From Streptomyces davaonensis JCM 4913 (GTDB lineage Bacteria > Actinomycetota > Actinomycetes > Streptomycetales > Streptomycetaceae), in assembly GCF_000349325.1 (NCBI RefSeq), contig NC_020504.1, positions 6,296,053 to 6,360,052 on the forward strand: a stretch of DNA of 64,000 bases. The letters are read 5' to 3'. Under the pieces are notes generated by a model. That model made no database searches and had not been told where the DNA came from. It saw nothing but the letters and a program-made list of their open reading frames with translations. This document shows, piece by piece, positions 51,397 through 55,077 of the stretch (the stretch's first letter is position 1; each line of letters starts with the position of its first letter). The translations under genes were made by a program, and so were the position numbers.

Positions 51397-52515
51397 TCAG
51401 GCCGGCTGGGGGCGGGGGGCGCCGACGGCCAGCCTGGCGCGGGCGAAGTCGCGATTGGCGAGGATTCGTTCACGGTGCTCCGGGGGGAGCGCTCCGCCGT
51501 CCAGGAGCTTCTCGCAGGCGTCCAGTGACTCGCGGTAGGCGCCGATCCAGTAGGCCGCGACCGCCCATTCGTCGAGAGCTTTCCAGTCGTACCAGGCGTG
51601 TTCGACGAAGAGGATGTCGTCGGGGGGCGGGAGTTCCGCCGCTCGGCGGGCGAAGAGGTAGGCGAGGGGCCAGCGTTCGCCTTGGGTGCGGCAGAGGTGG
51701 GCCAGTTCGCCCAGGGGTTCGGCTCGCGTGGGGCGGAACTCGTGGGCCTCCAGGTAGCGGGTCATGATTTCCGGTGTGCGGCGTTTCAGGGTTTGGGCGA
51801 GGCGGGCCGCGTAGAGGCGGGAGCAGAAGGCTTCCTCGGCGAAGCCCGCCATGGCTGCTCGACGGTCGTAGGCCGCCAGTGCCTTTGCCGGCTCGCCTGC
51901 GTCGCGCCAGCTCTGGGCCAGGTAGAAGGCGTAGCGGGTGTTGTTCGGTTCTTTGGCCAGGCCGTCTTTGAGGATTGCTGCGTCGCGCAGGTACTTCGTG
52001 CGCTGGCTGCCTTGGGACCTGCCGCCGCCGCCCATGATCATCATGCGGACGCCGTTCAGGGTGGCCCGGGTGAACTCCGTGTCGCACTCCAGGTATTCGT
52101 GCAGCACGCCCACGTACCGCCAGGGCAGGCGGGTGGAGACCAGTGCCGGGCGCCAGTGGACCACGGGGCCGTGGCGCACCTCGATGTCGTAGCAGTCGTG
52201 GGTCAGGTCCGGGCGCGTGAAGTCGGGGGCCGTCTCCAGGACGTCGTCGGCGTCGATGAAGAGGAGGTGGCTCGCCTGGGTGGTTCGGGCTCGTTCGATG
52301 GCCTCCGTGCGGCTTGCGCCGAAGCCGCGCCACGGGCTCTCGTGCAGGGTTCCGGGCAGGTCGGCGAGGGTCTCGCGGACGATGCCCTGGGTGCCGTCGG
52401 TCGAGCCGGTGTCGAGGATCACCCAGGAGTCGACCAGGGGCCGTACGGATTCGAGGCAGCGGCGGATCACATGGGCCTCGTCCTTGACGATCATATTGAG
52501 ACAGACCGTTTTCAT
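51397..52515 (-). CDS. Family-2 glycosyltransferase with C-terminal TPR-like region
   Basis: 372 residues. The GT-A start is MKTVCLNMIVKDEAHVIRRC, then LDTGSTDGTQGI and the metal-binding LLFIDADDVLE. The C-terminal half is helical, resembling TPR/SunS-type peptide glycosyltransferases. It is probably cytoplasmic. The acceptor is unknown; the neighbours make a secreted or surface glycoprotein plausible. It is divergent from the GT39-like gene, sharing a region with a 16-bp palindrome. Confidence 0.85.
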   Translation of the reverse strand: MKTVCLNMIVKDEAHVIRRCLESVRPLVDSWVILDTGSTDGTQGIVRETLADLPGTLHESPWRGFGASRTEAIERARTTQASHLLFIDADDVLETAPDFTRPDLTHDCYDIEVRHGPVVHWRPALVSTRLPWRYVGVLHEYLECDTEFTRATLNGVRMMIMGGGGRSQGSQRTKYLRDAAILKDGLAKEPNNTRYAFYLAQSWRDAGEPAKALAAYDRRAAMAGFAEEAFCSRLYAARLAQTLKRRTPEIMTRYLEAHEFRPTRAEPLGELAHLCRTQGERWPLAYLFARRAAELPPPDDILFVEHAWYDWKALDEWAVAAYWIGAYRESLDACEKLLDGGALPPEHRERILANRDFARARLAVGAPRPQPA

Positions 52516-52524
52516 GCCTTTTTC

Positions 52525-52540
52525 TTTTCTCCGGAGAAAA
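52525..52540. promoter_or_regulatory. 16-bp perfect palindrome between divergent glycosyltransferase genes
   Basis: Ttttctccggagaaaa is self-complementary over all 16 bases. It lies 10 bp ahead of the family-2 enzyme's start and 130 bp ahead of the other gene. An operator for both is plausible. Confidence 0.4.
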
Positions 52541-52671
52541 GGACCGGTCGGTGAATTTATCGAGTCGTGGGGGTGGGTGCAAGGAGCCATTGGTGGTTCG
52601 GTCGGTATAAGGGAGTGGTTCCGCTCGCGTTCCTGTCGCCTGTTACCCGTCGCCGGACCGGAGAATTTCTT

Positions 52672-54189
52672 ATGGTAATCACCGCGCAGCTTCCTCCGCC
52701 TCGCGAGGAATTCCAGGAGTCCGCCGAGGGGCGGTTCGTGCGGGGCAGGGTGGTGCTCTGGGCGGCGCCCCTCGTCCTCACCCTGCTGGTCGGCGGCTTC
52801 GGGCTGACCGGGCCGTTGCTGGGCCGCGACGAGCTTGTCACCTGGGACATGGTCGGCCGGGACACCGACCGGATCCTGGCCACCCTGCGCAACGTCGACG
52901 CCGTGCACGGCGCCTATTACCTGCTGATGCACGGCTGGGTCACGCTGTTCGGGGATTCCGTCCTTTCCCTGCGGCTGCCGTCCCTATTCGCGGTGGCCGC
53001 CGCGGCCTCGGTCGTGGCGCTCCTCGGGGACCGGCTCTTCGGATATCGGGCCGGAATTCTCGCCGGTTTGCTGTTCGGGCTCGTACCGGCGGTGAGTCGT
53101 TACGGCCATGAGGCCCGCTCCTATGCGCTGGTGCTGTTCGCCGTCTCGCTCGCCACTCTTCTCCTGCTCCGGGCATTGGACCGGCCGCGCAGCCTTTGGC
53201 GCTGGGCCGCCTACGTCCTCGCACTGGCCTGCACCGGAGCCCTCCATCTGATCGCGCTGTCCGTCGTACTCGCCCACGCCGCTCTGCTCGTCGCCCGGGC
53301 GCGGCAGGACCGCTCCCTGTGGTGGCGGTCGGGCCTCGCCCTGGCCGCGGCCGCCGCGTGTGTCACCCCGCTCGCCCTGCTCGGCAGGTCCCAGGCCGGA
53401 CGCCAGCTGTACTGGGTACCGGCGCCGGACGGCTGGGCGCTGCTCTCCCTCCCGCAGGACCTGTTCGCCTCCGCGGTCGGCGCCGGAGCCCTGGCCGCCC
53501 TCGCCCTGACGGCCCGCTCGGAGCGCAGGGCGCCGCTGCTGCTGTGCGGCATCTGGGCACTGGTGCCCCCGGCCCTGGTGTGGGCCTTCTCCCACGGCGA
53601 GGTGTCGTACTTCCGTGGCGTGTACGTCCTGTTCACCCTTCCGGCCTGGGCGCTGCTCGCCGGGGCGGGGCTCGATGCGGCCCGGCGCTCCTGGAAGGCG
53701 GTCGCGGCCGGGGTCGTGGTGCTGGCCCTGCTGACGCTGTCGGACCAGCGGCAGATGCGGCAGCCGTTCGAGCACAACGCCCCGGTGATCCTTGACTACG
53801 CGGCGGCGGCCGAGGTGATCGAGCGGGGCCACCGGGCCGGGGACGCCGTCGTCTACGACCGCTTCGACAGCTGGAAGCTCGACGGTGGGGTGGCGTACTA
53901 CCTGCCGCGCGAACTGCGGCTGCGGGACGTGTTTCTGACGCGGACACCGGCCGAGATCGATGACCTCTATGCGGTCCAGTGCGCCGTACCGGACCGCTGT
54001 CTGAGGAAGGACGAGCGGCGCGTCTGGCTGCTGACGCAGGGCACCGACTTCCCCTTCAACGCGATCGATCCGGAGCAGGCGGGTGCCTTGCAGCGGCGGT
54101 ACACGGTGAAGGTGAGCATGCCGGTGACCGGGATGACGGTGAGTCTGCTGGAGCTCACCGACGCGGCAGGGGGTGTCCGGCAGCCCTGA
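52672..54189 (+). CDS. Polytopic glycosyltransferase, GT39/PMT-like (ArnT-type)
   Basis: 505 residues with about 10-11 membrane segments in the first 380 residues and a C-terminal extracytoplasmic domain. GRDELVTW in the first loop is the acidic motif expected for lipid-linked sugar transferases (GT-C). GT39 enzymes move mannose from polyprenyl-phosphate to Ser/Thr of secreted proteins; others act on lipids. ATG 52672 has GGAGAA ahead. Its stop codon sits in the loop of a terminator. Confidence 0.82.
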   Translation: MVITAQLPPPREEFQESAEGRFVRGRVVLWAAPLVLTLLVGGFGLTGPLLGRDELVTWDMVGRDTDRILATLRNVDAVHGAYYLLMHGWVTLFGDSVLSLRLPSLFAVAAAASVVALLGDRLFGYRAGILAGLLFGLVPAVSRYGHEARSYALVLFAVSLATLLLLRALDRPRSLWRWAAYVLALACTGALHLIALSVVLAHAALLVARARQDRSLWWRSGLALAAAAACVTPLALLGRSQAGRQLYWVPAPDGWALLSLPQDLFASAVGAGALAALALTARSERRAPLLLCGIWALVPPALVWAFSHGEVSYFRGVYVLFTLPAWALLAGAGLDAARRSWKAVAAGVVVLALLTLSDQRQMRQPFEHNAPVILDYAAAAEVIERGHRAGDAVVYDRFDSWKLDGGVAYYLPRELRLRDVFLTRTPAEIDDLYAVQCAVPDRCLRKDERRVWLLTQGTDFPFNAIDPEQAGALQRRYTVKVSMPVTGMTVSLLELTDAAGGVRQP

Positions 54190-54208
54190 CGCTCTGCCGG
54201 ACACCCCC
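54169..54208 (+). terminator. Terminator containing the glycosyltransferase stop codon in its loop
   Basis: A 15-bp perfect stem, gggggtgtccggcag (54169-54183) and ctgccggacaccccc (54194-54208), loop 10 nt with TGA at 54187-54189. The left arm encodes the last residues of the protein. Confidence 0.85.
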
Positions 54209-54222
54209 TTGCTCGTGGGGTG

Positions 54223-55077
54223 CTACGGGACGATGGTCCCGCCGTTCACGGCGCCGGGGGCCGGCTGCCGGTTCACGAGGCTCCAGGGTGTGGTGCACGA
54301 CAGGGTGGGGGTGGCGTCGGTTTCCACATCACAGGTGGTGCCGTAGATCTGGCCGCCGGTGGTGATGACTTCGATTGCCAGGTCTCCTTCGGTCCCCCCG
54401 CCCAGTGCCTGCTGGGACACGGCGATCGCACAGGCGTTTGACGGGTAGTTGCGGAGCCCTGTGAGGTCGGTCCACAGGAAGGCCGTGGGGGTCGGCTGGA
54501 GGTCGCGGATGCCCGCGTAGGCTCTGGCCGGGCCGCCCATGACCGGTGGGGTCAACGCGGCTCGGACCTCGAAGTTGTTCTCGTCCCGGCTGGCGTCGAT
54601 GTCGACACAGGGGCCGGCCGCGCCGGTGGCACCCGTGGCACCCGTTGCACCGGTCGCACCGGTCGCACCCGTTGCACCCGGGGCGCCGGTGCCGCCAGGG
54701 CCGGTGGCACCGGTGGCACCTGTCGCACCGGTGGCACCGGTGGCGCCCTTCGCACCGGTGGCACCCGTCGCACCGGTCGCACCGGTGGCGCCCTTCGCTC
54801 CGGTCGCGCCCGTCGCGCCCGTGGCGCCACGGCACTTGTCCTTGCCGGTGTACGCCTCCTCGGTCGCTCTCGGCTTGTGGTGGGGCTTGCCGGGCTTGCA
54901 GTCGTCGCCCGTGTACGGCGTCGCGGTGGGCCGCTCGGACACGGCCTGGGCGGCCGCCGCGGACGGCGTGACCACCCCGGCGGCGATGACCAGGGCGAGG
55001 GAGGTCAGTACTCCGGCCCGTTGGAACCTCGCGCGGGCCAACGGCCCCAGCAGCGAAGGAGTGTGTCGAGGACTCAT
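54223..55077 (-). CDS. Secreted collagen-like protein with (Gly-Ala-Thr)n triple-helix region
   Basis: 284 residues. A signal peptide ends near AAAQA (about 44). A Lys/His-rich linker leads to 23 Gly-X-Y triplets (84-154) broken once by Gly-Pro at 126-127. Eighteen triplets are Gly-Ala-Thr, with two Gly-Ala-Lys. A C-terminal domain of about 128 residues follows with four cysteines. Such bacterial collagens form trimeric stalks with a globular tip; Thr in the Y position is often glycosylated, as in Bacillus BclA. ATG 55077 has AAGGAG 7 nt ahead. Confidence 0.88.
   Translation of the reverse strand: MSPRHTPSLLGPLARARFQRAGVLTSLALVIAAGVVTPSAAAAQAVSERPTATPYTGDDCKPGKPHHKPRATEEAYTGKDKCRGATGATGATGAKGATGATGATGATGAKGATGATGATGATGATGPGGTGAPGATGATGATGATGATGATGAAGPCVDIDASRDENNFEVRAALTPPVMGGPARAYAGIRDLQPTPTAFLWTDLTGLRNYPSNACAIAVSQQALGGGTEGDLAIEVITTGGQIYGTTCDVETDATPTLSCTTPWSLVNRQPAPGAVNGGTIVP
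54616..54828. repeat. 9-bp tandem repeat encoding Gly-Ala-Thr triplets
   Basis: Repeats of ggtgcgacg-like units on the minus strand code for the triplet region. The units vary at wobble positions, so selection on the protein is likely. It is not a CRISPR array. Confidence 0.85.

Follow-up and report, generated by a model that had tools for sequence, protein, structure and literature searches.

The locus

A gene for a collagen-like protein and a gene for a family-2 glycosyltransferase (termed here the GT2) lie, with a third gene between them, within a 64,000-nucleotide stretch of Streptomyces davaonensis JCM 4913 (NC_020504.1, positions 6,296,053 to 6,360,052), the whole of which is termed here the window; the close relatives of the host genome are Streptomyces. 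A preliminary description of positions 51397-55077 had placed there a secreted (Gly-Ala-Thr)n collagen-like protein, a polytopic 'GT39/PMT-like' transferase and a family-2 transferase, and all three genes are indeed found. It is well supported that the GT2-collagen pair is of the same kind as the SgtA-BclA3 pair of C. difficile, a kind wider than was then proposed. The genes and their parts are the following:

51397..52515, minus strand: GT2 glycosyltransferase with a TPR tail (P0003, 372 amino acids; PF00535, 40.4 bits)
52021..52515, minus strand: GT-A catalytic domain of the GT2 (invariant columns, structural model)
51424..52005, minus strand: helical TPR-like repeat domain of the GT2 (profile, fold)
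54223..55077, minus strand: secreted collagen-like protein (P0001, 284 amino acids; Pfam PF01391, E 5.6e-9)
54952..55077, minus strand: N-terminal export signal of the 'MSPxxRT..LGPLxR...ASLALV' type (by eye, extent approximate)
54610..54828, minus strand: Gly-X-Y tract of about 24 triplets, threonine (Thr) at Y in 75%, with a single break beyond the middle
54226..54609, minus strand: C-terminal domain, 128 amino acids with four cysteines (all-beta model, predicted local distance difference test (pLDDT) 81.6)
52672..54189, plus strand: polytopic GT-C enzyme, optional (P0002, 505 amino acids; PF13231 PMT_2)

The GT2 and polytopic genes are divergent and the polytopic and collagen genes convergent, so that the succession of strands (minus, plus, minus) rules out a single operon for all three. 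The collagen-like protein is as first described: its PF01391 match (36.1 bits) exceeds the gathering score of 27.2, Thr occupies Y in 75% of the triplets and the N-terminus is, by eye, of the Sec type; the tandem-repeat score of its open reading frame is 173. Of 41 extracted collagens, a set chosen partly by that motif, 38 have an N-terminus akin to it. The O-glycosylated stalk on hyphae or spores that the preliminary description envisaged is putative; inspection of the window protein by eye showed no wall anchor, neither an LPXTG motif nor a membrane segment at the C-terminus. The protein scores 41, 33.8 and 31.5 bits against the NCBIfam cut-offs (400, 325 and 500) for the LPXTG-anchored Scl1 and Scl2 and the collagen-like adhesin Lcl. 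Its C-terminal domain (the C-domain) has no Pfam match, no Foldseek match in PDB or BFVD with an E-value of 0.001 or lower and, in a sequence search, no match up to E 10; a homology search using the C-domain alone returned one protein.

Pairing of the GT2 with collagen genes across Streptomyces

Of 246 Streptomyces genomes, 86 have a GT2 match with an E-value of 0.001 or lower, and 53 have one of more than the 220 bits that here define the GT2 family (counted from the table of that search); the collagen C-domain is present in 45. The two coincide strongly: 34 of the 53 genomes with a GT2 have the C-domain (19 have the GT2 alone), as do 11 of the 193 without one, and 182 have neither (Fisher 7e-19). 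Pfam Collagen matches occur in 235 of the 246 genomes but were not used as a census, since many of those listed hit a single place on both of its strands.

At the level of individual loci, a collagen tract was scored automatically as a run of at least eight contiguous Gly-X-Y triplets no more than 5 kb from the gene, and was called Thr-rich if, over at least eight triplets, the fraction of triplets with Thr at Y (termed here TY) was at least 0.35. By this rule a tract accompanies 47 of 57 GT2 loci, being Thr-rich at 41, versus none of 18 control loci (Fisher 1.4e-10), the controls being stretches around unlinked GT-C genes (L146 and L147, picked for collagen matches, were excluded). A looser count, after hand removal of antisense frames in L074 and L110, gives 48 of 57. 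Thr-rich collagens likewise occur at all four of four further Streptomyces GT2 loci. Several of the genomes from a search for related loci apparently also belong to the 246 (e.g., L011/L074, L015/G033 and L016/G212).

This pairing extends beyond a single conserved neighbourhood. When grouped by flanking DNA (single linkage) the 57 loci form 13 clusters, 8 of which contain the Thr-rich pair; and 18 of 61 loci (the 57 and the further four, window counted) share at least one window neighbour, that is, the radical-SAM gene, the gene at 55310-56419, DUF2344 or rne. The GT2s themselves fall into two groups, of about 59-87% and about 38-45% identity to that of the window, each of which includes loci beside collagens. 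The pairing of a transferase with a Thr-rich collagen gene, as expected of an SgtA-like enzyme and as the preliminary description had envisaged, is thus borne out for the GT2.

Among the ten loci lacking a tract under the rule, L090 fails only the 5-kb limit and L099 has kept a collagen gene: there (L099:7057-8993) the GT2 is matched in two pieces only, and the adjoining gene keeps its signal and C-domain, the tract having been lost. At L111:8213-9259 (minus strand) a GT2 of 42% identity adjoins a gene for a secreted protein in which 23 GTPTG repeats replace the collagen. The latter is the only match kept from a scan of collagen-less loci for Thr-rich windows, the background being equally noisy (31 matches in the 18 controls). 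A small secreted protein at 50747-51208 was rejected as a part of the module, being present in one of the 61 loci, namely the window; elsewhere in the window a 105-base tandem repeat of about three copies occupies 18920-19241 (score 546).

Threonine content and linkage to the GT2

A hidden Markov model of the C-domain was trained on 41 proteins, three of them of another collagen type (L079, L088 and L090, in which an export signal of a different type, RRTIRSSR or similar, is seen). In the sampled stretches 67 C-domain members were counted; 50 have a GT2 no more than 5 kb away and the other 17 do not (of the 15 unlinked stretches sampled, L166 gave no match to the model and was left out of the counts). 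A Thr-rich tract is present in 44 of the 50 members beside a GT2 versus 1 of the 17 elsewhere (Fisher 1e-9), where L101 was scored as discordant from a miscut open reading frame (its TY in the looser count is 0.73). Of the 16 other unlinked members, some lack a tract and the rest carry tracts in which GPP, GPK, GPR or GPQ triplets predominate. In an earlier count (46 linked, 17 unlinked) the median TY was 0.69 for the 42 linked members with tracts, and for the 8 unlinked members with tracts TY was 0, 0, 0, 0.03, 0.04, 0.12, 0.12 and 0.50 (linked versus unlinked, p 1.5e-5). In all five genomes that have both a linked and an unlinked tract of at least eight triplets (G083, G134, G012, G038 and G188) the linked tract is the Thr-richer; G042 was omitted, its unlinked tract being four triplets long. 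The C-domain tree requires a minimum of 6 changes in linkage and of 7 in Thr-richness. A C-domain alignment has 59 rows, several of the 67 members, L101 and L084 among them, being left out. Glutamine (Gln)-rich collagens (GAQ or similar) are also seen near GT2 genes (L083:5928-6905, L087, L088 and L090).

The transferase

The PF00535 match confirms that the enzyme at this locus belongs to family 2. In 25 relatives DTGSTDGT (residues 35-42), D88-x-D90 and HE (139-140) are invariant; across 15 relatives that form a wider set, D35, D40, D88, D90, H139 and E140 remain so, whereas T39 and G41 vary. No export signal was seen by eye. The architecture is that of an SgtA-like transferase, namely a GT-A domain followed by TPRs, where the TPR assignment rests on profile and fold, the single-sequence Pfam match being below the cut-off.

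A profile of the 25 sequences, when searched against the PDB, matches GmaR (E 1.9e-20, the best for the transferase domain), SunS (2.6e-17) and 7msk (7.5e-13; ThuS, by its name in the Foldseek results), as well as designed and natural TPR proteins; and the six top Foldseek matches in the PDB to the structural model (pLDDT 89.7) are SunS/ThuS. As judged by profile and by predicted fold, the GT2 is nearest to peptide and protein glycosyltransferases (GmaR, SunS and ThuS).

The polytopic gene as an optional component

The 'GT39/PMT-like' label of the preliminary description holds in its second part only: P0002 matches PF13231 PMT_2 (33.6 bits, cut-off 26.1), but it has no match to PF02366 up to E 1, and it was therefore rejected as a GT39 protein O-mannosyltransferase. 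The best curated NCBIfam match is to the MT1671-type mannosyltransferase (NF052499), a distant likeness: at 130.3 bits versus a cut-off of 900 it is not a member. The GT-C enzyme has no match in the PDB and none on plasmids at 1e-30.

A PMT-like gene lies near the GT2 in 12 of the 61 Streptomyces loci; in an overlapping set it occurs in 8 of 14 Streptomyces loci, with a short remnant in one more. Co-occurrence, proposed at first for all three genes, therefore holds for the GT2-collagen pair and was rejected for the trio. Conversely, 11 of the 16 GT-C matches of at least 300 bits are in GT2 loci, and no collagen tract of eight contiguous triplets is found at the remaining five (L132-L136) or at any of the 18 GT-C-only loci. 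The most fitting reading of the PMT-like gene is that its product serves an optional step after that of the GT2.

These observations bear on two other ways of apportioning the enzymes. In the first, of the Ppm/PMT type, the GT2 would supply a polyprenyl-phosphate sugar and the GT-C enzyme alone would glycosylate the exported collagen outside the membrane. The PMT_2 match is consistent with such a route, as is the presence of a dolichyl-phosphate-mannose synthase (5mlz) at Foldseek rank 25 of the GT2 model; yet 49 of the 61 GT2 loci lack the GT-C gene, and most of these have a collagen, and the best relatives of the GT2 are the peptide or protein transferases named above, making this route improbable. 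In the second, a housekeeping GT39 PMT would O-mannosylate the collagen and the GT2 would add a second sugar. Candidates for such an enzyme exist, PF02366 having seven matches at five places in the host genome, none within the window, and actinobacterial protein mannosylation is described as widespread (PMC12757957). However, the conservation of the GT2 would be left unexplained and, because no export signal was seen by eye, the GT2 should meet the chain before export; this arrangement, too, has little probability.

Other bacteria, plasmids and phages

Within the class, the GT2 is matched at 1e-30 or better in 23 of 345 genomes, 10 of them Streptomyces. Of 16 non-Streptomyces stretches at this level, three (L179, L180 and L187) have a collagen of TY 0.33-0.52 within about 1 kb, and in L188 the collagen, 3.6 kb from the GT2 relative, is poor in Thr. 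Other actinomycete relatives lie beside Gly-Gly-X-rich (PGRS-like) repeat open reading frames (L182:8632-11316 and L184:4029-13500).

Relatives also occur in 17 plasmid and 5 phage records. Among the neighbourhoods inspected (six plasmids and one phage), a Thr-rich collagen tract (TY 0.50-0.96) lies near the relative in five plasmids and in the phage: at about 1.5 kb or less in Cupriavidus campinensis, C. metallidurans, Methylobacterium aquaticum, Mesorhizobium ciceri and Peribacillus frigoritolerans, and, in Tunturiibacter phage Tunturi_5, within a tail fibre gene about 4 kb away. In Mesorhizobium ciceri (L196:2682-5483) the GT2-like domain is seen inside a 'glycosyltransferase family 25' protein, about 1.5 kb from a collagen of TY 0.94. 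In a Citrobacter plasmid (L198:2918-7194) the relative adjoins an autotransporter gene instead of a collagen; Enterobacter and E. coli plasmids carry a transferase of the same identity.

Among viral loci (the best 80 of 433 in IMG/VR, forming 36 clusters at 80% identity), a tract is present in 50, the nearest always within 3 kb, and 21 of the 36 clusters have a tract within that distance. Relative to a tract-level null for 74 loci (the other six, each below 6 kb, were left out), 34 loci have a tract within 1.5 kb versus 18.0 expected, and 44 versus 27.6 within 3 kb; within 500 bases there are 2 versus 10.4 expected, probably because the tract lies inside its own gene. Hence the viral adjacency of GT2 and tract is real but its excess only about twofold.

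Weighing the evidence

A number of observations count against regarding Thr-rich collagens as the substrates of these transferases. Ten of the 57 Streptomyces loci lack a tract; the distant relatives L019-L021 have none within the stretches examined; only 3 of the 16 class-level loci outside Streptomyces lie near a collagen whose TY reaches 0.33, and 10 have nothing of the kind; and 30 of the 80 viral loci lack a tract, the nearest tract reaching a TY of 0.35 in 29 of the other 50 and some having a TY of 0. Low-Thr collagens occur beside the GT2 in L083 (0.16; Gln-rich and 83 bp off), L094 (0.24), L109 (0.16) and L113 (0.08), Gln-rich collagens of another kind lie 2.4-5 kb from it in L087, L088 and L090, and L129 (TY 0.50) is the sole Thr-rich member without a GT2. 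Moreover, the association between Thr and the GT2 rests on few independent evolutionary events: only two independent pairs fall on supported branches of the tree (six on the best tree), and a sign test is not significant. Because Gram-positive bacterial collagens in general have Thr at Y more often than any other residue, according to PMC8968730, Thr alone is no proof of glycosylation; and because SgtA also used serine (Ser) peptides, as described in PMC7157674, Thr may not be the sole acceptor.

The tract-less loci, L019-L021 and the Citrobacter arrangement would be consistent with the pair being a neutral gene neighbourhood, with the GT2 acting on wall glycans or on other proteins. Such neutrality is nonetheless unlikely given that 8 of the 13 neighbourhood clusters, and other phyla too, have the pair, that Thr-rich tracts accompany the GT2 and that, in L099, a GT2 matched in two pieces only adjoins a collagen gene whose tract is gone.

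Proposed mechanism and its implications

It is probable that the GT2-collagen pair constitutes a collagen glycosylation module, within which Thr residues of the collagen are O-glycosylated in the cytosol before secretion. The core of the module is two genes, namely those for the secreted collagen and for the GT2 with its TPR tail, to which the PMT-like gene is an optional addition. The observations themselves establish how the genes and domains are arranged, that the catalytic motifs are conserved, that the pairing spans the genus and that Thr-rich tracts go together with the GT2. The scheme that follows is inferred as regards which residues accept the sugar and which sugar it is, the transfer taking place in the cytosol, the part played by GT-C and the extracellular position of the rod. 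The GT2 would act in the cytosol, with its GT-A domain bearing the donor-binding residues and its TPR tail gripping the acceptor chain, and would add one sugar (as a best guess, an N-acetylglucosamine (GlcNAc)-like residue) to the Y-position Thr of unfolded Gly-X-Thr repeats. The modified chain would be exported by Sec and would then trimerise into a short hydrophilic collagen rod having a cysteine-containing C-terminal head. At loci with a GT-C enzyme, such as that of the window, this enzyme may extend the sugar on the outer side of the membrane from a lipid-linked donor.

A bolder conjecture, possible but doubtful, is that the TPR-containing GT2 and Thr-rich collagen form a widespread two-gene cassette (in Actinomycetota, Pseudomonadota, Bacillota and phages) for making sugar-coated rods, on which the sugar stabilises the helix as hydroxyproline does in animals; and that in Streptomyces the triple helix joins three two-blade C-domains into a six-bladed, lectin-like head. 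In the trimeric lectins RSL and BambL the protomer is a two-blade propeller. Comparison of the two C-domain halves as repeats gives weak support (hhalign P 0.042 local, 0.57 global), and a lectin role for this domain is speculation. Were both cassette and head real, one secreted molecule would both bear and bind sugars.

Glycosylation is known for few bacterial collagens, most of them lacking an assigned enzyme. Because the enzyme-substrate pair recognized here from gene order is recurrent, has an acceptor motif that can be tested and is matched by a proven analogue (SgtA), it opens collagen glycosylation to experiment in harmless laboratory bacteria, and could offer a route to glycosylated recombinant collagen. 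The pair suggests, in addition, that one transferase family may serve both bacterial collagens and phage tail fibres.

Comparison with known systems

The S-glycosyltransferases SunS and ThuS modify a cysteine of a small bacteriocin (a glycocin). Like the GT2, which they match strongly by profile and most closely by fold, they are GT2-family enzymes that modify a partner peptide; their acceptor is the bacteriocin cysteine, whereas that of the GT2 is presumed to be Thr of the collagen repeat. GmaR of Listeria is the O-GlcNAc transferase of flagellin, so that its partner protein is flagellin where that of the GT2 is a collagen-like protein. The BclA exosporium glycoproteins combine an exosporium leader with a C1q/TNF-like C-terminus; the window collagen has instead a signal that by eye is of the Sec type, and a C-domain lacking a significant PDB match.

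Like the window, plasmid p16118 of Peribacillus frigoritolerans has a GT2 relative (31%) near a 'collagen-like protein' (TY 0.96); the plasmid also carries 'exosporium protein C'. Unlike the window, it belongs to an endospore former and has a second transferase gene between the relative and the collagen.

As to earlier descriptions, no paper on a glycosylated Streptomyces collagen was found among the open-licence PMC papers listed, as judged by titles and abstract starts, in keeping with the initial claim that such a system is undescribed in this genus; nor was a description found among the papers listed of a wider transferase-collagen pairing beyond SgtA-BclA3. PMC6521150 merely names a collagen triple helix repeat open reading frame beside a gene cluster.

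The closest parallel is SgtA-BclA3. BclA3 is an exosporium protein of endospores, whereas the window collagen is a Sec-type secreted protein of a host that does not form endospores; and the window locus, unlike that of SgtA, has an optional GT-C gene, the activity of its GT2 being predicted. As described in PMC7157674, SgtA is a protein of 358 amino acids with a GT-A domain followed by TPRs, its gene is immediately upstream of bclA3, and it adds beta-O-GlcNAc to Thr of BclA3 collagen-region peptides. By description, then, the two pairs are alike in the size of the transferase (358 versus 372 amino acids), in the order of its domains and in the adjoining collagen gene; and the acceptor, which for SgtA is Thr of the collagen-repeat region, is presumed for the GT2 to be Thr of the collagen repeat.

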